Of a stretch of DNA of 53,986 nt, positions 9,328-47,734 are shown one piece after another (position 1 is the first letter of the stretch; each line of letters starts with the position of its first letter). Source of the DNA: an uncultured Allofournierella sp. (GTDB lineage: Bacteria; Bacillota; Clostridia; Oscillospirales; Ruminococcaceae); NCBI GenBank assembly GCA_944382775.1, contig CALWNI010000010.1, positions 1 through 53,986 of the forward strand, given 5' to 3'. The notes under the pieces were generated by a model. That model was given only the letters and a program-made list of their open reading frames with translations. It had not been told where the DNA came from and searched no databases. Position numbers and translations under genes: made by a program.

Positions 9328-9849
9328 TTAGTAGTTATCGGGAATCAGTACACCATAAGTACCGTTTGCTCTGCGATAAACAACCTGAATCTGGTCGTCT
9401 TCCATGTTGCGATACAGATAGAAGTTGTGGCCCAGCAGGTTCATCTGCAAAATTGCTTCTTCGGTGCTGCAGGGTTTTACGGCAAACCGTTTTTCACGGA
9501 TAACATCGTATTCCTCTTCGTGTTCGGGTTCCGCCTGCCATTCTACTGCGGCAGCGCGGGTCAGCTTATCGCCCAAACGCTTGCGGTTCTTTACCAGGCG
9601 GCGGGTCAGCAGTTCTACTGCATCATCCAGCGCATCCTCCATGCGTTCTGCCATTTTTTCAGCCCGGATTACAAGGCCTTTGTCGCGCACTGTAACTTCA
9701 ACCGTTTGTCCACTTTTTTCAACGGTAACAGTAACCTGTGCCTGGGCTTCGCTGGCGAAGAACTTATCCAGCTTGTCCAGCTTTGCTTGCGCCTTTTCTA
9801 CAAAACTCGGTTTTAAAGAAACCTTTCTACCAGTGCATGTGACCTTCAT
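9328..9849 (-). CDS. hpf: Ribosome hibernation-promoting factor, long form
   Basis: A 173-residue long HPF, which joins 70S ribosomes into inactive 100S dimers in stationary phase. Residues 1-100 are the HPF/YfiA RNA-binding domain, with basic residues in RAEKMAERMEDALD and LLTRRLVKNRKR. Residues 120-173 form the C-terminal dimerisation domain ending in the typical YRRANGTYGVLIP. The ATG at 9849 is preferred because AAAGGAGG lies 9 nt upstream and the protein then begins with the conserved strand MKVTCTGRKV. An earlier in-frame start would fall in a hairpin. Confidence 0.94.
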   Translation of the reverse strand: MKVTCTGRKVSLKPSFVEKAQAKLDKLDKFFASEAQAQVTVTVEKSGQTVEVTVRDKGLVIRAEKMAERMEDALDDAVELLTRRLVKNRKRLGDKLTRAAAVEWQAEPEHEEEYDVIREKRFAVKPCSTEEAILQMNLLGHNFYLYRNMEDDQIQVVYRRANGTYGVLIPDNY

Positions 9850-38509: not shown

Positions 38510-38559
38510 CAAAAACACAAAAACAACCTTTTTGTACAACTGACAAAAAGGTTGTTTTG
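38510..38559 (-). terminator. Terminator of the glycosidase/GtrA operon
   Basis: Minus strand: AAACAACCTTTTTGT pairs with ACAAAAAGGTTGTTT and is followed by TTGTGTTTTTG. Confidence 0.75.
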
Positions 38560-38614: not shown

Positions 38615-39115
38615 TCAATTTTTCGGCATAATCCAAAACTTCATGGCAGGATAGCTCAATACAACCTGCACCACAATGTTTACCACGTTAGCCAATGTGG
38701 GTGCAAAGCCTTGGGCAACGCCCATGTTTACAAAGAAAGCCTGGCTGTATGCAGGCAGTGCAGACGATACCACCACCAGCACCACGGCCAACGCAATGTA
38801 CTTGGGTACGGCTTTGCCAAAGGCTGCGTTGGATTTAAACACAAAGTTCTTTTGCACAAAAAAGTTTACGGTTTGTGCCGCAGCGGTTGCCACCAAAAAG
38901 CTTAAAAAACCACACAAGCCCAAATCGCTTTGTACATTGGTATAGTTAAAAATCAAAAACTGAAAGGGCTGGTTTGCAAATGCCGAAAACACAAACCCGG
39001 TGCACAGCCACATTACCACAAAATTGGTTACGGTGGCGCAGTTGGATAACACATTAAACAGGATAAACTCCCACAGGTTGGGGTGGGTATCAATCCATTT
39101 TTTTACTGCTGTCAT
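38615..39115 (-). CDS. GtrA family membrane protein
   Basis: A 166-residue protein with four hydrophobic helices, characteristic of GtrA (PF04138): EFILFNVLSNCATVTNFVV at the start and TVNFFVQKNFVFKS in the middle. GtrA proteins are thought to flip polyprenyl-linked sugars or act beside glycosyltransferases. The ATG at 39115 follows AAAGGGGAA. It lies 24 nt past the conventional GH3 gene. Confidence 0.88.
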   Translation of the reverse strand: MTAVKKWIDTHPNLWEFILFNVLSNCATVTNFVVMWLCTGFVFSAFANQPFQFLIFNYTNVQSDLGLCGFLSFLVATAAAQTVNFFVQKNFVFKSNAAFGKAVPKYIALAVVLVVVSSALPAYSQAFFVNMGVAQGFAPTLANVVNIVVQVVLSYPAMKFWIMPKN

Positions 39116-39138
39116 GGACAAGTTCCCCTTTACTTTTG

Positions 39139-41553
39139 TTATTGTTTGGATGCCTTGGCGGCTTTTCGTGCTGCAAAAAAGCTTTTGCACAAACGGCCGA
39201 ACCCTTTGCAGAACGACCCGTTTACCATGGTAACAATGGCCCGTGCCATATCCATGGTAACCATACCGCCCGTCATTTTGGCAATACCACGGAACGGCAT
39301 GTTATAGATGAACAAAATGTTCAAATCCGGCTCACCTTTGGCAATGCTCTTATCTTTTAAATGGGTTAAAATTTTGTACACCAGGCGTGCCAAGCCGCTT
39401 TTTGCATAGTACATCTGGCAAATGGCATCGTTAATGCCCAACAAACCGGTATGGTCCCAATCGGATTCGGGAATGGGATGCCCCAGCAATGCCTCAAATT
39501 CCGCATCGCTTACTCGGGTAATGTTACCACTGTAATAGCTGGGCATCTGCGCCACATGGTAGGGGCATTCGGCATCGTCGCCTTTTACCGCCAAATCCTG
39601 TGTTAAACGGATATCCGCCACGCTGGCACCAATCATAATCTGGTAACAGTTGGTTTCCACCTGCCATGCGTTGGTTTTCACGTTGAAATAACGGAAGGTT
39701 TTGTCGTCAAAGGGAATCACCACACGCTTGCTTTCGCCTGCTTTTAAGAATACCTTTGCAAAGCCCTTTAACTCTTTTGCCGCACGGAATACCCGTGCAT
39801 TCTTGCAGCCCACATACAGCTGTACTACCTCGGCACCGTCGTATTTACCGGTATTGGTCAAGGTAAAGGCGGCCTGCTGCTGTGTTACCTCCAAATCGCT
39901 GTAGGCAAAGGTGGTATAAGACAAGCCATAGCCAAAGGGGAAACGAACCGCCACGCCTGCGGTTTCGTAATAGCGGTAGCCCACATACAGACCTTCGCGG
40001 TATTCACTGGTGCGCTCCAAGCCCGGATAATACGCTGACGAGGGATTTTGCTCGCACTCCATGGGATAGCTTTCGGCCAGCTTGCCGCTGGGATTTACCT
40101 GACCCACAAGCACCCGCAATACGGCACCTGCGCCTGCCTGACCGCCCAGATAGCCATGCACCAACGCTTTGCAGCTGTTGAGCCAAGGCAGTTCCACCGG
40201 GCTGCCGGCAGACAGTACCACCACCACATTGGGGTTTACTTCGGCAACGGCTTTAATCAGCTGAATCTGATTTTCCGGCATGCGCATATGTTCACGGTCC
40301 ATACCTTCGGTTTCGCTGATTTCGGTAAGGCCTGCATAAATCAGTACCACCTTTGCCTGTTTTGCCAGTTCTACCGCCTCTAATTTCAAGGCTTCGTCCT
40401 GTTTGTTGTTGCGCTGATAGCCCTGTGCATAGCCCACCAGCTTGAGCGGAACTTCACCCAGCACATCCAGGGCACTGTCCAAACGGGTGGGATTCACCAC
40501 GCTGGAACCTGCACCCTGATAGCGGGGCTTTTGTGCAAAATCGCCGATGACCGCCACTTCGGTGCCCTCTGCCAGGGGTAGAATGTTTTCCTCGTTTTTC
40601 AAAAGCACAACGGTTTCTTCTGCGGCTTTTGCTGCCAAATGGTGGTGGGCTTGTTTATCAAAGGGTTTGGTGCCATGTGCAGTTGCATCCTTGGTTTCAA
40701 ATACCAGCTTCAAAAACTCATCCACACGCTGGTTCAGCAGTTCTTCGCTTAATTTTCCCTGTTTTACCGCTTCGATCAGTTCACGGTCGCCATCGCCGCC
40801 GGTGCCCGGCATTTCCAGATGGCTGCCCACCCGAACGCCTTCCACATGGTCGTTGGAGCCGCCCCAGTCGGTAACCACTGCCCCTTGATAGTTCCAGTCC
40901 TTTACCAGAATATCTTGCAGCAGATGTTCGTTTTCGTTGGCATACACACCGTTGACTAAGTTGTAGCTGGTCATAATGGTTTTGGGCTGGGATTCTTTTA
41001 CGGTAATTTCAAATCCGGTTAAGTAAATTTCCCGCAGGGTGCGTTCGTCCAGTACGCTGTCGTTTGCCATACGGCGCAGCTCTTGGCTGTTTACCGCAAA
41101 ATGTTTGGGGCAAGCTGAAATTCCGTTGGACTGCACGCCCCGTACAAATGCCGCCGCCATCTTGCCGGACAGATACGGGTCTTCGGAAAAATACTCAAAG
41201 TTACGGCCGCAAAGAGGGCTGCGCTTGATGTTTAAGCCAGGGCCCAGCAACACGTTTACCCCAAGGCAAACCGCCTCTTCGCCCACCAGTTTACCAACCT
41301 GTTCGCTCAGTTCGGGGTTCCAGCTGTTGGCCATGGTTGCAGCGGTGGGCAGGCAGGTTGCCGGCTCGCTGGCGTTTAAGCCCAAGTGGTCGCCTTCGCC
41401 CAGCTGCTTACGCACACCGGTGGGACCGTCTGACAAAAAAATGCTGGGAATACAAAGCCGCTCAATGGGTCTTGTGGACCAAACATCACGACCGGACAGC
41501 AGGCTGCACTTTTCTTCCAATGTCATTTGGGAAATCAATTCTTTATACTTCAT
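39139..41553 (-). CDS. Glycoside hydrolase family 3 (beta-glucosidase-like), conventional order
   Basis: An 804-residue cytoplasmic GH3 enzyme without signal peptide. The TIM-barrel half is first: LSDGPTGVR, KRSPLCGRNFEYFSEDP, CPKHFAVN and the catalytic nucleophile Asp229 in VVTDWGG. The second half has AVEETVVLLKNEENILPL-type sequence, FGYGLSYTTF and a fibronectin-like domain. A 130-residue C-terminal extension (HPIPESDWDHTGLLG, NMPFRGIAKMTGG) is an addition seen in some clostridial homologues. The ATG at 41553 follows AAGGAG by 10 nt. The exact sugar is unknown. Confidence 0.92.
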   Translation of the reverse strand: MKYKELISQMTLEEKCSLLSGRDVWSTRPIERLCIPSIFLSDGPTGVRKQLGEGDHLGLNASEPATCLPTAATMANSWNPELSEQVGKLVGEEAVCLGVNVLLGPGLNIKRSPLCGRNFEYFSEDPYLSGKMAAAFVRGVQSNGISACPKHFAVNSQELRRMANDSVLDERTLREIYLTGFEITVKESQPKTIMTSYNLVNGVYANENEHLLQDILVKDWNYQGAVVTDWGGSNDHVEGVRVGSHLEMPGTGGDGDRELIEAVKQGKLSEELLNQRVDEFLKLVFETKDATAHGTKPFDKQAHHHLAAKAAEETVVLLKNEENILPLAEGTEVAVIGDFAQKPRYQGAGSSVVNPTRLDSALDVLGEVPLKLVGYAQGYQRNNKQDEALKLEAVELAKQAKVVLIYAGLTEISETEGMDREHMRMPENQIQLIKAVAEVNPNVVVVLSAGSPVELPWLNSCKALVHGYLGGQAGAGAVLRVLVGQVNPSGKLAESYPMECEQNPSSAYYPGLERTSEYREGLYVGYRYYETAGVAVRFPFGYGLSYTTFAYSDLEVTQQQAAFTLTNTGKYDGAEVVQLYVGCKNARVFRAAKELKGFAKVFLKAGESKRVVIPFDDKTFRYFNVKTNAWQVETNCYQIMIGASVADIRLTQDLAVKGDDAECPYHVAQMPSYYSGNITRVSDAEFEALLGHPIPESDWDHTGLLGINDAICQMYYAKSGLARLVYKILTHLKDKSIAKGEPDLNILFIYNMPFRGIAKMTGGMVTMDMARAIVTMVNGSFCKGFGRLCKSFFAARKAAKASKQ

Positions 41554-41747
41554 AGCATCGATGCTCCTTATCGTATTGGATTCATAAACCGAAAGAAACC
41601 AGACCATTCCTTGCAGTCTGGGTATTGGTCGATTGCCACAAAGCGAATTGCCAGCAATTCGCTCTCTGGAAATCGGCCCATGGGGCAGGGCTAAAAAAGC
41701 CCTGCCCCAGACCGGTTTCTATGCGATTTTACAACCGCATTGTTGTG

Positions 41748-44684
41748 TTATTCTTGGGTTTGTGCTACGGGCACAACGTCCATATCCTTTTTGCGTGCAT
41801 ACGCTTTTACAACACGTACTTCCAGTACTACAAAGCCAATTGCCAGCAGTACATCCACTGCAATGGCAACCATCTGCCATGCCATCAAGCCACTGCTCAG
41901 ATTTTCAGCCTCATAAGCACGGCTGTTTACTACGGTGTACAAAATGTTTTTGCAAGCTTGACGCATTGCCAAAACACCGCTTGCGCTCGTGGTATCCTTC
42001 ACATGGTTGGTGGCGGTATCATAAGCAACCAGCATGCAGTCGGTACCGTTGCGGATAGCCTGGTCTGCGTTCATGTAGCCGTATACGCCAAAGTAGTCGG
42101 TCAGAACAAAACCTTCAAAGCCCCATTCATCACGCAATACCTTGTTCAGCAGCTCGTCAGATGCGCCTGCCCATTCGGTGCCAATGTAGTTAAAGGAAGA
42201 CATAACGGCCTTTGCGCCGCCCTCTTTTACGCTAATTTCAAAGGGCTTCAGGTAAATTTCACGAATGGCCTGCTCGTTGGACCAGGTGCACAGCATATCG
42301 GTACGCTTTTCTTCCTGGTCGTTCAAAGCAAAGTGCTTGATGTAAGCATAAACGCCGTACTCTTCTGCACCGATGACTGCTTTTGCGGCAATTTTGCCGG
42401 CCAAAACACCGTCTTCGGAGTAGTACTCGAAGTTACGGCCTGCAAAAGCGGCACGGTGGGTGTTCATAGCAGGAGCGTACCAGCCGGAAACGCCCATTTC
42501 GTCTGCCATTTTACCAATGCACTCGCCAAATGCCTGTGCAACATCCTCGTTCCAGGTGGATGCAATCATAACTGCACTGGGGAAACCAATGGAACCAACC
42601 TTGGTGAAGTTGTTGTTGATGGAAGCAGGGCCGTCGCAGTCAATGGTTCCTACCTTGCCCACGCTGGCAGCGGCACTGGTCTGATAGCCGCCAATGGCAA
42701 TCAGTTTATCCATTTCGCTGATGGTCAGCTGATCCAGCAGGCTTTCCCACTGCGGGTCGTCGTAAGATGCCCCACGCAAATCTTGCAGCTGCAAACCATT
42801 CTTTGCGCCGGTGGTGGGCATCTGGTCAGCATCGTTGTTGTACTGGGTTGCATCGTAGTTGGAGTTGTTGATAAAGGTTGCCTTTGCAGCCTCGGAGATT
42901 TCCAGGCTTGCAGGTGCGGCGGTTGCCTGTGCGTAGTTTTCAAAACCGTTTGCACGGGACAGATAGGTAACATCGCCGGTTGCATAGTCAAACTGGTTGG
43001 TTGCAGCCACTGCATCGGTGCTGCGGGCGTTGTTTTCGCCGTATACTACGGTTTCGCTCACATTGTAAACGCGAGAATCCAAAACGGTATGCGAATCGCC
43101 ATTGATGCTGATGATGTAATCACCGGCTTCCAAAACATAGGCCTTGTTGGTCTTTTCGTCGTAAGAAGCCATATCCTCGGCGTTAAAGGTTAAGGTCAAA
43201 GTTTGAGAAGCACCGGGCTCCAGTACATCGGTTTTATCAAACGCAATCAGGTTTGCGGTTGCTTTTTCAATACCGCCGTTGGTGTACGGGGGATTGTAGT
43301 AAACTTCCACAACCTCTTTGCCTGCCACGCTGCCGGTGTTGGTTACGGTTACGTCAACCGAAATGGTGCCATCCTGCACCTTCAAATCACTCATGGTCTG
43401 GGTAAAGGTGGTGTAGCTCAAACCATAGCCAAAGGGATATTGAACGGTTGCATTGTAATCAATCAGACCTTCGGCCGCTGCGGTTTCATAGAAACGATAG
43501 CCCACATAAATGCCCTCGTTGTAATTTACAAATGCAGGGGTAAATACTTCGGTATTGCCGGTAAAGCCGCTTTGCTCTACCACAAACTCGCTCATATTGG
43601 TGTACTCAAACTTACCAAAGTTGTTCCACCAAGGGGTAGCGGTCAGGTCTTTTACAAAGGTATCTGCGGTTTTGGCAGAGGGGTTCACGGTACCTGCCAG
43701 AATGTTGCCCAGTGCATTAAAGCCGGTTTGACCGGGGCCGGGGCACCACAAAACGCCCTTGATTTGGCTGTATTCATCCACAAAGCCCAGCTCCATGGTG
43801 TTTGCGCCGTTGTAAACAACCACTACGTTTTCAAAGTTGCTGCAAACCAAAGCCAGCATATCCCGCTCGCTTTTGGACAGCTGCAAGTAGTGTTCGCCTG
43901 CCTCAAACTCGTTATATGCAGTGGAGTTGTTGGTAAAGCTGCTGTTGCGGTATGTACTGCCATCTTTCCAGCTGCCGTCGATAACCGCAGCCATATCGGT
44001 GGGCAGGTCGGCATTTTCGCCGCCGGGACGGGTAATTACAACCACAGCAGTATCAGAAAATGCTTTTGCGTTATCCATCATCTGCTGGGTGTAGGTATCC
44101 ACAGGAGGTTCGGGCAAGGTCCAGTCTTGCTCCCACATGCCCAGAACGGGACGATCTGCACGATAAGCGGTGTAAAAATCGCTGAGTTCGCTGTTCAGCT
44201 CAAAGCCTGCATTCTGCAAGCCCTCCAGCAAGGTTACGGTGTGGTAGGCATCGTTCATTGCACCGGAACCGGTACCGCCGTACAGCGGATTGGTGGATGC
44301 CCAGCCAAACACATTCAGCTTGCTGTTTTGGCTTAAAGGCAACAGGCCGCCGTCGTTTTTCAGCAGCACAATGCCCTCTTCTGCCACCGAAGCACAAAGC
44401 TCCTGTGCTTCCACGGTGGTTTCTTCGGTAATGGTGCCGTTGCCGGTTGCCAAAGAAATCAGCGAAGACATGGGAATAAAGCAAATCAGGTTAACAGTAA
44501 CAACCAAAGCCAGCAAAATGGCCATGCCTGCTTGGCTGCGAATCAAAAACTTTTTGCTTTTGGGCAGCTTAATGCAAGCCACCATTGCAATCAGTGCCAA
44601 AACCAGCACAACCGCAAATCCAATCAGATAGGGTGCGCAGGTCATTAAGACGTTTTTGACGTCTTCCATATTGATTGATAACAT
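41748..44684 (-). CDS. Membrane-anchored, domain-permuted glycoside hydrolase family 3
   Basis: A 978-residue protein. Two membrane helices (about 15-38 and 50-76) come first. The GH3 C-terminal half is next (GIVLLKNDGGLLPL near 104, then HFGYGLSYTTF-type sequence near 425 and a fibronectin-like domain). The TIM-barrel half is last (DCDGPASIN, GRNFEYYSEDG, IKHFALNDQE, and the nucleophile Asp863 in VLTDYFG). A third membrane helix (about 934-955) and a basic tail end the protein. The inverted order is known in some GH3 enzymes of Ruminococcus and Butyrivibrio. The three anchors hold the enzyme on the membrane, probably outside. RBS GGAGG, 7 nt from the ATG. Confidence 0.92.
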   Translation of the reverse strand: MLSINMEDVKNVLMTCAPYLIGFAVVLVLALIAMVACIKLPKSKKFLIRSQAGMAILLALVVTVNLICFIPMSSLISLATGNGTITEETTVEAQELCASVAEEGIVLLKNDGGLLPLSQNSKLNVFGWASTNPLYGGTGSGAMNDAYHTVTLLEGLQNAGFELNSELSDFYTAYRADRPVLGMWEQDWTLPEPPVDTYTQQMMDNAKAFSDTAVVVITRPGGENADLPTDMAAVIDGSWKDGSTYRNSSFTNNSTAYNEFEAGEHYLQLSKSERDMLALVCSNFENVVVVYNGANTMELGFVDEYSQIKGVLWCPGPGQTGFNALGNILAGTVNPSAKTADTFVKDLTATPWWNNFGKFEYTNMSEFVVEQSGFTGNTEVFTPAFVNYNEGIYVGYRFYETAAAEGLIDYNATVQYPFGYGLSYTTFTQTMSDLKVQDGTISVDVTVTNTGSVAGKEVVEVYYNPPYTNGGIEKATANLIAFDKTDVLEPGASQTLTLTFNAEDMASYDEKTNKAYVLEAGDYIISINGDSHTVLDSRVYNVSETVVYGENNARSTDAVAATNQFDYATGDVTYLSRANGFENYAQATAAPASLEISEAAKATFINNSNYDATQYNNDADQMPTTGAKNGLQLQDLRGASYDDPQWESLLDQLTISEMDKLIAIGGYQTSAAASVGKVGTIDCDGPASINNNFTKVGSIGFPSAVMIASTWNEDVAQAFGECIGKMADEMGVSGWYAPAMNTHRAAFAGRNFEYYSEDGVLAGKIAAKAVIGAEEYGVYAYIKHFALNDQEEKRTDMLCTWSNEQAIREIYLKPFEISVKEGGAKAVMSSFNYIGTEWAGASDELLNKVLRDEWGFEGFVLTDYFGVYGYMNADQAIRNGTDCMLVAYDTATNHVKDTTSASGVLAMRQACKNILYTVVNSRAYEAENLSSGLMAWQMVAIAVDVLLAIGFVVLEVRVVKAYARKKDMDVVPVAQTQE

Positions 44685-44861
44685 CTTATTTCCTCCTTAA
44701 CATGTGCAAGTATGAATCCCTTTTCATTGCGCGTGTGTGTTCTTGCTCTCTTTTTTGTTCAAATAGGCAGACCCTCCTCTGACTCTGCTCTTTCACAAAA
44801 TTAGGTAACGTATCTTTGCTGCAAAGTTTGCGTTTGCACGCTCTTTGCATTTTATGCATGG

Positions 44862-44870
44862 ATTGTATCA
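44862..44870 (-). promoter_or_regulatory. Extended -10 promoter of the GH3 operon
   Basis: TGATACAAT on the minus strand, with a poor -35 (CGTAGA) 17 bp upstream. This fits a promoter needing an activator. The leader to the ATG is about 170 nt and contains small palindromes (e.g. CTTTGCTGCAAAG at 44814-44826). Confidence 0.6.
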
Positions 44871-44899
44871 TATCCCCTATTCTTTCTACGCAATTTTTC

Positions 44900-44928
44900 A
44901 CAAACGGTTCATTTTACGCACAAACGGA
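44900..44928 (-). promoter_or_regulatory. Candidate LytTR operator: 9-bp direct repeat
   Basis: On the minus strand TCCGTTTGT (44928-44920) and ACCGTTTGT (44908-44900) are direct repeats 11 bp apart. Both fit the LytTR repeat pattern [TA][AC][CA]GTTN[AG][TG]. The proximal copy ends about 10 bp upstream of the -35 of the GH3 promoter, the usual place for an activating LytTR regulator, and such a regulator is encoded next door. Confidence 0.65.
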
Positions 44929-44950
44929 ATTACCCTTTATACAAAATAAC

Positions 44951-45003
44951 AAAACAAAACCACGCCAATTTGTGCCTATTGCTCAAAAGCGTGGTTTTGT
45001 TTT
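44951..45003 (-). terminator. Terminator of the two-component operon
   Basis: Minus strand: ACAAAACCACGC pairs with GCGTGGTTTTGT, followed by TTTGTTATTTT. It separates the regulator pair from the GH3 genes. Confidence 0.8.
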
Positions 45004-45009
45004 ACACTG

Positions 45010-46329
45010 TTATTTTTTGTTTTCCGGAATGGGAATCAAAATTTTCATATCAAACCAATGGTCTTGGGCCGTAATTTTTACACTGCCGTTATACTTTTGC
45101 ACCGTATAGCGAATGCTTTTAATGCCAAAGCCGTGGTAGCTTTTTTCTTGTTTGGTGGTTACAGGTACTCCCTCTTCAAACTGCAACGGATGTTCAAAGT
45201 AATTTTCAAACCGAATCAACAAAAAGCCCTTTTGTGCCGCTGCTGTTACATGAATCAGTCGCTTTGTTTTGTCTGAAATTGCAAGGGCAGATTCAATGGC
45301 ATTGTCCAGTGCGTTGCCAAACACCGTACAGATATCCCGCACATCCATAAAAGAAAGCTGTGCTCCGTCTGCCACGCAGGTTAGGTAGATGCCGTGCTTT
45401 TGGCAATACAAACTTTTGCTGGTAAGCACGGTATCCAACACCGCATTGCCGGTTTTGTTTTGCGCTTCGTATGCTTTGATGTCCTCTTCCATTTCGTCCA
45501 GCCATTCGTTGCGCTTGTTAGGGTCATGTTCTGCCCGCAGCGCCGCAATTTGGTGCTTTAAATCGTGGTATTTGCGGTTTATGACCTCAATGCTTTCCCG
45601 CGATTGGCGATACTGTATGTACTGATTTTGCAGCACATTGTGAATGGAGTCCAATTCATACCGCATGTTCAGCTCTCTGCGCTGTACATGGTAGGCATAC
45701 AAAATTGCCAAACCGCCCAGATCCACCATGGTTCGGGTGTTAAAAATATCGGTAATAAAACGGCTGCTGAACGGGGTGTTTGTGTAGGCATAACTAAGGT
45801 TGCTTATAAAAAACACGGTAATTCCGATTACCACTGCGCTGCACAGCTCTCTGCCCGTTACCTTCATGCGATATTCCGTGTTGTTGTGGCGGTGCTCCAG
45901 ATAATACATAAACCCAAAAACAACACCGTATACCAAAACCAAACAGGCAAGGTTTACCAAAATCCCCTCTGCCTGAAACCGCACAACGCCGTAGTAATAA
46001 AGCTGCCATTCCAGTGCAGCGGCAAACTCTGCCAAGATGAACGCCCGCATGCAGCTATACCATGCGTCTGCCGCACTTACATTGGCGCACAGATACAAAA
46101 ACACAAACATCAGCCCAACGGCAACGGCCATGCAGGGCATCCAGAACATCAGTGGTACGGCGGCGGTTGCAACCAAAAAGGACGCTTGCACCCCCAGCAT
46201 ACCAATACAAACCCCTGCCAGCTTCCAGCCCTGTATGCGCAGCGGAAACTGTGTAATGTACACCAAACACGCCAGCCACTCAGCCAATGCCGTATAAATG
46301 CGGGGAATATCCTGTACTGCCGTGTTCAT
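45010..46329 (-). CDS. GHKL-domain sensor histidine kinase (AgrC-like)
   Basis: A 439-residue kinase. Residues 1-215 hold six or seven membrane helices with short loops. A dimerisation helix leads to YHDLKHQ (phospho-accepting His255). The GHKL ATPase part has FGNALDNAIESAL (N box) and YHGFGIKSIRYTVQKYNG (G box). This HPK10 type pairs with LytTR regulators, often as peptide-pheromone receptors. No signal-peptide gene was recognised nearby, so the signal is unknown. The start overlaps the end of the regulator gene (ATGA). Confidence 0.92.
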   Translation of the reverse strand: MNTAVQDIPRIYTALAEWLACLVYITQFPLRIQGWKLAGVCIGMLGVQASFLVATAAVPLMFWMPCMAVAVGLMFVFLYLCANVSAADAWYSCMRAFILAEFAAALEWQLYYYGVVRFQAEGILVNLACLVLVYGVVFGFMYYLEHRHNNTEYRMKVTGRELCSAVVIGITVFFISNLSYAYTNTPFSSRFITDIFNTRTMVDLGGLAILYAYHVQRRELNMRYELDSIHNVLQNQYIQYRQSRESIEVINRKYHDLKHQIAALRAEHDPNKRNEWLDEMEEDIKAYEAQNKTGNAVLDTVLTSKSLYCQKHGIYLTCVADGAQLSFMDVRDICTVFGNALDNAIESALAISDKTKRLIHVTAAAQKGFLLIRFENYFEHPLQFEEGVPVTTKQEKSYHGFGIKSIRYTVQKYNGSVKITAQDHWFDMKILIPIPENKK

Positions 46330-47036
46330 TTCATCACCTCGCCCATATAATCGGCCAGGGCTTCCATAAAATCGTTTTTGCGGGCACGGCTAATTAAAAG
46401 TTCACTGCCGTTTACAATGGCACAGCCGTCCCGCACCGCCTCCACATGGGCAAGGTTCACCAAGTAGCCCTTGTTGCATCGAAAAAAGCCCAATGTATCC
46501 AACTTTTCCTCTGCATCCCGCATGGTTCCGGTGGAAACATGCTGCCCCTGTGCGGTGTAAAAAATCAGGTTATGCCCCTGGCTTTCAATGTAGTAAATGC
46601 CGTCAATGTCCAGCTTTTGGGTGCCGCCTTTGATGGTAATTGCCATATAACGGCTTGCCCGCTTTTTCATGCGACCAATGGCCCGATTCAGCCGCTGGGA
46701 AAAAGCAAAATAGCTCACCGGTTTCAGCACATAATCCAATGCATCCACCGCATACCCCCGAATGGCGTACTGCACCATGTTGGTGATAAACATGATCACC
46801 ACTTCGGGGTCTACTTTGCGAATTTCTTCGGCTGCGGTCATGCCGTCCATAAATTTCATTTCCACATCCAGCAAAATTAAATCGTACTTGGCTGTGTACC
46901 CTTCTACAATTTCATCGCCGTCCGAAAAAATCGAAAGTTCAAATTCTTCTCCGTTTTCTTGTGCATAGCGATGCAAAAAATCTTGCAGCTGCGCCGCATA
47001 AGCAGCTTCATCTTCCACAATTGCAATCCGAATCAT
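46326..47036 (-). CDS. LytTR-family response regulator
   Basis: A 236-residue regulator. The receiver (1-120) has Glu8-Asp9, phospho-acceptor Asp57 (LILLDVEM) and Lys in VLKPVSYF. The LytTR DNA-binding domain (about 135-235) is clear: IESQGHNLIFYTAQG, FRCNKGYLVNLAHVE, ISRARKNDFMEAL. It is the first gene of the two-component operon and probably controls the GH3 genes immediately downstream. Confidence 0.95.
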   Translation of the reverse strand: MIRIAIVEDEAAYAAQLQDFLHRYAQENGEEFELSIFSDGDEIVEGYTAKYDLILLDVEMKFMDGMTAAEEIRKVDPEVVIMFITNMVQYAIRGYAVDALDYVLKPVSYFAFSQRLNRAIGRMKKRASRYMAITIKGGTQKLDIDGIYYIESQGHNLIFYTAQGQHVSTGTMRDAEEKLDTLGFFRCNKGYLVNLAHVEAVRDGCAIVNGSELLISRARKNDFMEALADYMGEVMK

Positions 47037-47073
47037 AGCCGCGGCTCCTTGTATTTACGCAGTTTTTCTTTTT

Positions 47074-47103
47074 ATTATACTGGAACATTTACCCCATTTA
47101 CAA
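47074..47103 (-). promoter_or_regulatory. Promoter of the two-component operon
   Basis: Minus strand: -35 TTGTAA, 18-bp spacer, -10 TATAAT. No copy of the LytTR repeat was found here. Confidence 0.65.
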
Positions 47104-47314
47104 GGTTGTTATTCCTGTAACTTACTTGCCAAAATTTTTTATTAAATATAAGGTATGAATTTTAATAAATTTCTAAAACCCTCTTGATTTTCTTACTAAA
47201 ATGTTGCAAAATTAGAACAAATATATAAAAATTATTCCATAGAATATTGCACAATTTGCATACAGCGAAATTTGTGTGGCAATAAATTGCAACCAATAGC
47301 GAGGTATACCATTT

Positions 47315-47734
47315 ATGATGATTTCCACCAAAGGCCGCTATGCTTTGCGGGTAATGATGGATTTGGCCAAAAGTCCACCGGAAGAATACGTTGCCCTGGG
47401 CGGCATTGCCGAGCGGCAAGGTATTTCCATGAAGTATCTGGAGGCCATTGTTTCTTTGTTAAACAAAGCCAACTTTTTAGAAAGCCGCCGCGGCAAATCC
47501 GGCGGTTATCGTTTGGCACGGGCACCGCAAAACTACACCGTGCGCGACATTCTTCACGCAGCCGAAGGCGAACTTTCGCCCGTAAACTGCCGCGAATGTT
47601 CTGACGGCGACTGCCCCCGTGCTGACCAATGCACCACCCTTCCGCTGTGGCAGCAGCTGGACCAGCTGGTTGAAAATTTTCTGCAAAGCGTAACTTTGCA
47701 AGACATGCTGGACGGCACCCTGCCCCGCCTGTAA
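47315..47734 (+). CDS. iscR: Rrf2-family iron-sulfur cluster regulator IscR
   Basis: A 139-residue winged-helix regulator: STKGRYALRVMMDLA, then SMKYLEAIVSLLNKANFLES and SRRGKSGGYRLAR. Cys92, 95, 100 and 106 could hold an iron-sulfur cluster (three are usual). It precedes iscS-iscU and probably represses them when clusters are plentiful. The upstream region is very AT-rich and I could not place its promoter with confidence. Confidence 0.93.
   Translation: MMISTKGRYALRVMMDLAKSPPEEYVALGGIAERQGISMKYLEAIVSLLNKANFLESRRGKSGGYRLARAPQNYTVRDILHAAEGELSPVNCRECSDGDCPRADQCTTLPLWQQLDQLVENFLQSVTLQDMLDGTLPRL

Follow-up and report, generated by a model that had tools for sequence, protein, structure and literature searches.

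A predicted LytTR-type operator in front of glycoside hydrolase family 3 genes and its conservation among relatives of an uncultured Allofournierella

The window, that is, the whole 53,986-nucleotide stretch of DNA that was analysed, comes from an uncultured Allofournierella sp. and carries on its minus strand a regulator and a sensor kinase gene followed by two glycoside hydrolase family 3 (GH3) genes and a gene for a GtrA-like membrane protein (Table 1), with the regulator operon adjoining the GH3 operon on its upstream side, as the earlier note had described. The PF00072 and PF04397 matches of the regulator both lie over their cut-offs, which places it among the LytTR-family response regulators. 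The kinase possesses a hydrophobic N-terminal half with near-invariant residues, and its H255 lies within the sequence KYHDLKHQ. The hairpin behind the kinase gene has a folding energy as low as which none was obtained in 200 shuffles and is likely a terminator between the regulator and the GH3 transcription units; it was not in the list of the terminator pattern scan.

Both enzymes contain the N- and C-terminal GH3 domains and are family 3 members. In the first of them, designated here as GH3perm, the order is permuted, the C-terminal domain coming first and the N-terminal domain last, and hydrophobic stretches are found at residues 20-38, 52-70, and 929-959. The positive-inside rule is a guide to membrane topology, and the basic loop that joins the first two stretches together with the basic C-terminus accordingly suggests that the catalytic part is extracellular. 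Residues D863 and E223, which we take to be the nucleophile and the acid/base, respectively, are invariant in 18 orthologues. The same scan found no hydrophobic stretch in the second GH3 enzyme, and no anchor was seen. The GtrA-like gene has an 86% identical neighbour in locus L103. Among the features of a polysaccharide utilisation locus a regulator and GH3 genes are present, while a transporter is absent among the three genes 3' of the site described below. An Rfam search of 44600-47400 gave no match.

Table 1. Features of the operator region and of the adjoining genes in the window
Feature	Position	Strand	Basis
9-mer 1, TCCGTTTGT	44920-44928	-	sequence
9-mer 2, ACCGTTTGT	44900-44908	-	sequence
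Predicted operator half-site 1, CCGTTTGTGC	44918..44927	-	conserved in orthologues
Predicted operator half-site 2, CCGTTTGTGA	44898..44907	-	sequence and motif search
Extended -10, TGATACAAT	44862..44870	-	TGnTAnnnT form in 35/36 orthologous regions
-35 position with 17-bp spacer, CGTAGA, poor	44885..44890	-	promoter comparison
LytTR response regulator (REC + LytTR)	46326..47036	-	PF00072 59.3 bits, PF04397 63.8 bits
GHKL sensor histidine kinase	45010..46329	-	GHKL ATPase domain PF14501
Hairpin and T-rich tail 3' of kinase gene	44950..45005	-	-27.4 kcal/mol, z -5.0
GH3perm, predicted operator target	41748..44684	-	GH3 domains, permuted order
Second GH3 enzyme	39139..41607	-	GH3 domains, same strand, presumed same operon
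GtrA-like membrane protein, presumed third gene	38615..39190	-	Pfam 24.8, just under cut-off 26.1
Terminator-like hairpin after GtrA-like gene	38520..38558	-	pattern scan

Between the kinase gene and GH3perm the earlier note had read two direct 9-mers resembling LytTR half-sites, and their coordinates, direct orientation, and distance of 11 bp were verified on the minus strand. The unit under conservation is CCGTTTGTGC, which is offset by one base from the 9-mers as first written, and the conserved repeat core is C[CA]GTTTGTGC with starts 20-21 bp apart. The end of 9-mer 2 lies 9 bp from the -35 position that a 17-bp spacer gives, close to the previously claimed distance of about 10 bp. The good extended -10 and poor -35 were found as well, the best -35 match over spacers of 16-18 bp being 2/6. 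The site matches the geometry of LytTR-type operators adopted from the accessible part of PMC6193735, in which direct repeats of some 9 bp, separated by 11-13 bp, stand close upstream of the -35 position. In the window scan no repeat pair above threshold was located before the promoter of the regulator itself, as had also been noted. The pattern-based promoter scan, which returned 12 promoters in the window and 11.4 in shuffles, did not list the promoter of this operator.

The single word CCGTTTGT occurs 9 times in the window, where 2.9 occurrences are expected, while the exact repeat pair at the observed spacing occurs once in the 1.93 Mb of the organism's own assembly. At up to 3 mismatches the assembly contains 46 pairs and the control 76, which leaves only near-exact pairs as informative. 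A degenerate pattern of two 10-mers spaced by 10 bp, with at most 2 mismatches allowed, gave 4 matches versus 0 in the control in the own genome, where the GH3 operator alone had 0 mismatches, and 17 versus 2 in 7 genus genomes; with 11-bp spacing the 7 genus genomes gave 19 versus 24, i.e., no excess. A motif built from 11 loci not titled Oscillospiraceae, Fournierella, or Gemmiger gave the operator the top rank in the window, though the lead was modest, with a score of 20.7 versus 17.3 for the next site and 16.4 in the reversed window. Two further pairs of the window score 20.8 and 22.0 in the motif scan, both without a -10.

The relatives, which were retrieved by the regulator protein alone, comprise 197 family genomes, 7 genus genomes, and 80 named loci, the latter being the best 80 of 200, each up to 20.7 kb; counts over these 80 leave out L086-L093 and L100-L102, which include duplicates. 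A Gibbs-type motif search, in which the motif was not supplied beforehand, was applied to the regions before GH3perm in 36 cases, comprising the window and those loci whose GH3perm has 60% identity or more, with L168, L164, L170, and L171 excluded by gap size. It returned C[AC]GTTTGTGC-N10/11-C[AC]GTTTGTGC with scores of 532-590, versus 227-259 in all 12 shuffled data sets. Reversed regions, which scored 484.6, were rejected as a control because the backward repeats are found there. In 34 of the 36 regions the score exceeded all 200 dinucleotide shuffles of the same region, the motif being trained on these very regions, and the exceptions were L135 (4/200 as high) and L136 (1/200). A TGnTAnnnT -10 was placed 29-31 nt past repeat 2 in 35/36, and by eye the flanks vary while the repeats and the -10 are constant. 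Since the loci are related these counts are not independent, the effective number being about 22.5 of 36.

All seven genus genomes retain the operator before GH3perm at up to 2 mismatches. The scan of orthologous loci proposed in the earlier note detected the site together with its -10 in 61 of the 80 named loci (best 80 of 200), including 33 of 34 training and 28 of 46 non-training loci; the number reached 68/80 when a score of at least 20 without a -10 was also counted, and 12/80 had no site at either threshold, in some cases because contigs end or other genes follow. In a whole-locus scan of 2.12 Mb on both strands, with a threshold of score 16 or more plus a -10 at 28-32 nt and with some loci present twice, 85 sites were revealed versus 0 in reversed sequences; at a score of 20 or more regardless of the -10 the reversed control gave 1.

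Loss of the repeats in relatives that keep the operon, named in advance as the outcome that would speak against an operator, is not the rule but does occur. The uncultured Flavonifractor MAG L135 (12015-12237) keeps the regulator, kinase, GH3perm, GH3, and GtrA genes and lacks the tandem repeats, and L072 (2949-8089) has the regulator (53%), kinase, GH3perm (65%), and GH3 (57%) in the usual order where the canonical operator was not found; L179, a weaker case, has at most a weak repeat pair. Taken together, the repeats and the -10 are, as judged from sequence, a broadly conserved LytTR-type operator for glycosidase genes.

Taking as the target the longest ORF that starts within 900 bp of a site, the 72 sites with a -10 (best 80 of 200 loci) precede GH3perm in 52 cases and GH3 in 11, the regulator gene in a single case, and other genes in 8, so that the main downstream gene is of GH3 type in 63/72, including relocated GH3 genes. 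In L118 and L119 (Roseburia) a GH3 gene upstream of the regulator has its own site in addition to the site before GH3perm, and in L122 the GH3 and GH3perm genes are swapped in position with a site before each. In G137 the degenerate pattern has a second match with 0 mismatches on a different contig, at a distance from the regulator gene. This match is followed 31 nt on by TGGTAGAAT, and downstream of it lie a small lipoprotein-like ORF and a gene whose product contains a GH3 N-terminal domain. The site thus moves together with the GH3 gene. A small lipoprotein-like ORF is also found between the site and GH3perm in L127.

The non-GH3 targets include GtrA in L120 and L185 (Pfam over cut-off), chemotaxis receptors in L150 and L156 (Pfam) and in L162 (by likeness), and ORFs cut by contig ends with an exported-protein-like start in L153 and L161. 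In L142 (5975-8459) a strong operator stands before a Tat-signal FAD-binding protein in the place of a glycosidase. The regulator gene is preceded by an operator and -10 in L181 (Kineothrix, 9736-9766), the sole case in the best 80 of 200 loci, and by a match without a -10 in L138. The promoter of a pyrophosphatase-like (DHH/CBS/DRTGG) gene in four genus genomes (L224-L227), which has a similar repeat pair, is at most a possible second target because its -10 spacing fits poorly.

Anywhere in the 80 loci (best 80 of 200) matches to the kinase were found in 79, to GH3perm in 65, some of them only 30-40% identical, to GH3 in 57, and to either GH3 in 67. Two loci have unusual gene content. The locus of the Hespellia MAG L160 (4067-7946) has an orthologue of the regulator but lacks any match to the kinase, and the operator lies about 45 bp past the regulator stop, followed by a permuted GH3 gene. 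In Lacrimispora xylanisolvens ASCUSBR21 (L148, 12171-15013) the match to the permuted GH3 is broken into three pieces, which is not so in the sister strains.

Several related regulators are accompanied by other repeat words. In five loci where a GH78-type gene follows the kinase (L166, assigned by Pfam, and L169, L172, L174, and L176, assigned by the same protein start) the pair reads CGGATTRTGC, and TATAAT lies 31 nt on with TG directly before it, not TGn. The own-genome paralogue L067 (G000:C9:19523-19552) contains an exact GACCACTTA-N12-GACCACTTA pair, which adjoins a paralogous LytTR/GHKL pair and precedes genes for a GH2 and a permuted GH3 enzyme. This repeat pair was first spotted by eye and tested afterwards: when up to 2 mismatches were allowed, the 7 genus genomes contained 2 real sites, both with 0 mismatches and located only on own contig 9 and contig 65 of G200, versus 2 inexact control sites. 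In paralogous loci of G137 and G198 a GH3perm gene is preceded by ACAGGATACG pairs.

A general tandem-repeat scan of 27 whole paralogue loci gave no excess (6 versus 7 in the control), and a stricter one on the GH2-type loci found nothing. When the scan was confined to the 500 bp past the kinase gene and the -10 requirement was relaxed, a pair was present in 7 of 27 paralogue regions, versus a mean of 0.2 and a maximum of 2 in 50 mononucleotide shuffles and 1 in reversed regions. Only four of these pairs look clean (L067, L069, L106, and L107), and a clear pair is absent from most of the other regions among the 27 scanned.

The regulator tree was built from 48 hand-picked rows, in 41 of which the operator class was assigned by hand, while L105, L068, L104, L135, L137, L179, and L183 were left without a class; L094 and L095 entered the CGGATT class by the second half-site alone, and the next gene of L094 is by eye GH2-like, not GH78. 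On this tree the four operator classes require 3 changes, the minimum possible, and the canonical class has 87/71 support, with a program warning of long branches. Operator class follows regulator clade. The canonical rows inspected share the LytTR loop ES[QLV]GH[NSKR]L, which from the AgrA structure we take to contact DNA; the loop differs in the GH78-type rows, in the ACAGGATACG rows, and in L135, where it reads ESRDHEL.

The description of the sensor pair as AgrC/AgrA-like stands as far as architecture is concerned but does not extend to the rest of an Agr system: no agrB lies beside the pair, and no repeats for autoinduction were found at its own promoter in the window. Three LytTR genes and a single AgrB match are present in the own assembly (84% complete), and the AgrB match lies on contig 7 by another LytTR gene. 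That contig 7 locus (L233, 1237-4146) looks like a genuine agr operon with a LytTR regulator, a kinase, AgrB, and an AgrD-like 55-aa ORF recognised by eye. Concerning the kinase of the GH3 locus, 15 residues of the sensor half, e.g., W18, W108, Q109, and R199, are kept in at least 95% of 77 sequences, and the mean identity, computed on 77 of 82 sequences, is 41% in the sensor half versus 60% in the kinase half. We take the near-invariant sensor residues to suggest that the signal is probably a single conserved small molecule and not a variable peptide.

We hold it to be highly probable that the site is the operator of the adjoining LytTR regulator and switches on the GH3 operon, since the pair and its spacing are kept in many bacteria with the same sensor pair, which makes it very probably the regulator's seat. 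In the proposed mechanism the GHKL kinase would detect an extracellular cue and phosphorylate the regulator, a dimer of which would occupy the two repeats, 20-21 bp apart on one face of the DNA. From its place just upstream of the poor -35 the dimer may recruit RNA polymerase to the extended -10 and so switch on a presumed operon for a membrane-anchored, probably extracellular GH3, an anchor-less second GH3, and the GtrA-like protein. Activation of the LytTR-family kind agrees with the spacing, with where the repeats lie, and with the poor -35, and dependence of the promoter on an activator is very likely.

It is improbable that another factor, such as a global or sugar-responsive regulator, binds the repeats and that the LytTR pair is a mere neighbour. 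Some sites do lie away from the regulator gene, e.g., the second site of G137; however, the loci were fetched by the regulator alone and 68/80 of them (best 80 of 200) have the site, the operator class changes with the regulator clade, and repeat length, spacing, and position match the LytTR-family operators as given in the accessible part of PMC6193735. There is likewise little probability that the regulator binds and represses, or acts both ways, for which AgrA provides a precedent, being able to repress when its site lies immediately downstream of the promoter (accessible part of PMC4227749), and which the 4/6 -35 matches in 5 of 35 orthologous promoters would suit. The sites discussed here lie upstream of the -35 position and not over the promoter, and the best -35 match over the 35 promoters averages 2.54/6, equal to shuffled spacers, while the extended -10 is kept in 35/36; an unconserved -35 beside a conserved extended -10 suits an activator. 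Chance repeats or functionless ancestral intergenic sequence, which the over-represented single word might recall, have next to no probability given shuffled and reversed controls far below the real data, constant repeats and -10 between flanks that vary by eye, and conservation already seen in distant genera. Direct activation by the LytTR regulator is therefore retained as the preferred reading.

LytTR regulators are best known from virulence and bacteriocin control. The present regulator resembles the AgrA/ComE type in being a REC-LytTR protein, with ComE as its best solved relative, and in its operator, whose direct repeats, each about 9 bp long, are separated by 11-12 bp and lie just upstream of the -35 position, but it differs in its glycosidase targets, in the lack of an adjacent AgrB, and in having no site in the window before its own gene; the repeat sequence differs from the Agr-type word too. 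The LytTR Regulatory Systems HdrRM and BrsRM, as described in the accessible part of PMC6193735, possess direct repeats separated by 11-13 bp, in many cases at a distance of 10 bp from the -35, and an extended -10 is noted there for hdrRM, so that repeat spacing, closeness to the -35, and the extended -10 are shared. In contrast to those systems, where the partner is an inhibitory membrane protein, the partner here is a GHKL kinase (PF14501), which sets the pair outside the LRS class, and autoregulation was not seen in the window.

The glycosidases are indeed a target class unlike the usual ones, as the earlier note had proposed, yet they are less new than it implied. In Butyrivibrio proteoclasticus three LytTR response regulators each lie near a secreted GH3 with a C-terminal TMH (PMC2914790, 2010), the same association of a LytTR response regulator with a membrane-anchored GH3 as here; in its accessible part that study reports the neighbourhood only, in one species, with no operator or further targets given. 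Among the Gram-positive polysaccharide utilisation loci of Roseburia, Ros-7 comprises RR[LytTR], HK, and a chemotaxis transducer (accessible part of PMC5320581), i.e., a LytTR regulator and kinase with glycosidases as at the present locus, where the three genes include no transporter, unlike the Roseburia loci; no operator is described in that part of the source. In Cellulosilyticum a LytTR gene is linked to cellulase genes, according to the accessible part of PMC5733062. No description of an operator for GH3-linked LytTR pairs was found in the open-licence full texts searched. Thus the neighbourhood is partly known, whereas the operator, the promoter geometry, the movement with GH3, and the clade-specific variants are new as far as the literature search reaches.

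The variant operators raise the idea of a private operator code, to which we give an even chance, in which paralogous GHKL/LytTR pairs of Bacillota would each have their own tandem operator and glycosidase operon with no cross-talk. Under such a code C[CA]GTTTGTGC would serve GH3, CGGATTRTGC GH78, GACCACTTA GH2 and GH3, and ACAGGATACG other GH3 genes, all as 9-10 bp tandem repeats with similar promoter geometry, and several glycoside-sensing circuits might run in parallel in one cell. If the code is true, the chemotaxis receptor and Tat-signal flavoprotein targets that the canonical circuit has acquired in some species would point to glycosides or their aglycones, not a peptide, as what is sensed.

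In summary, sequence alone suffices to name, for glycosidase genes in several bacterial families, a putative regulator together with its operator and a fixed architecture of the promoter, and the paired motif is a ready search pattern for regulons. The natural operator/regulator sets would provide material on how LytTR domains change their DNA specificity, and LytTR regulators would thereby be placed in carbohydrate use.
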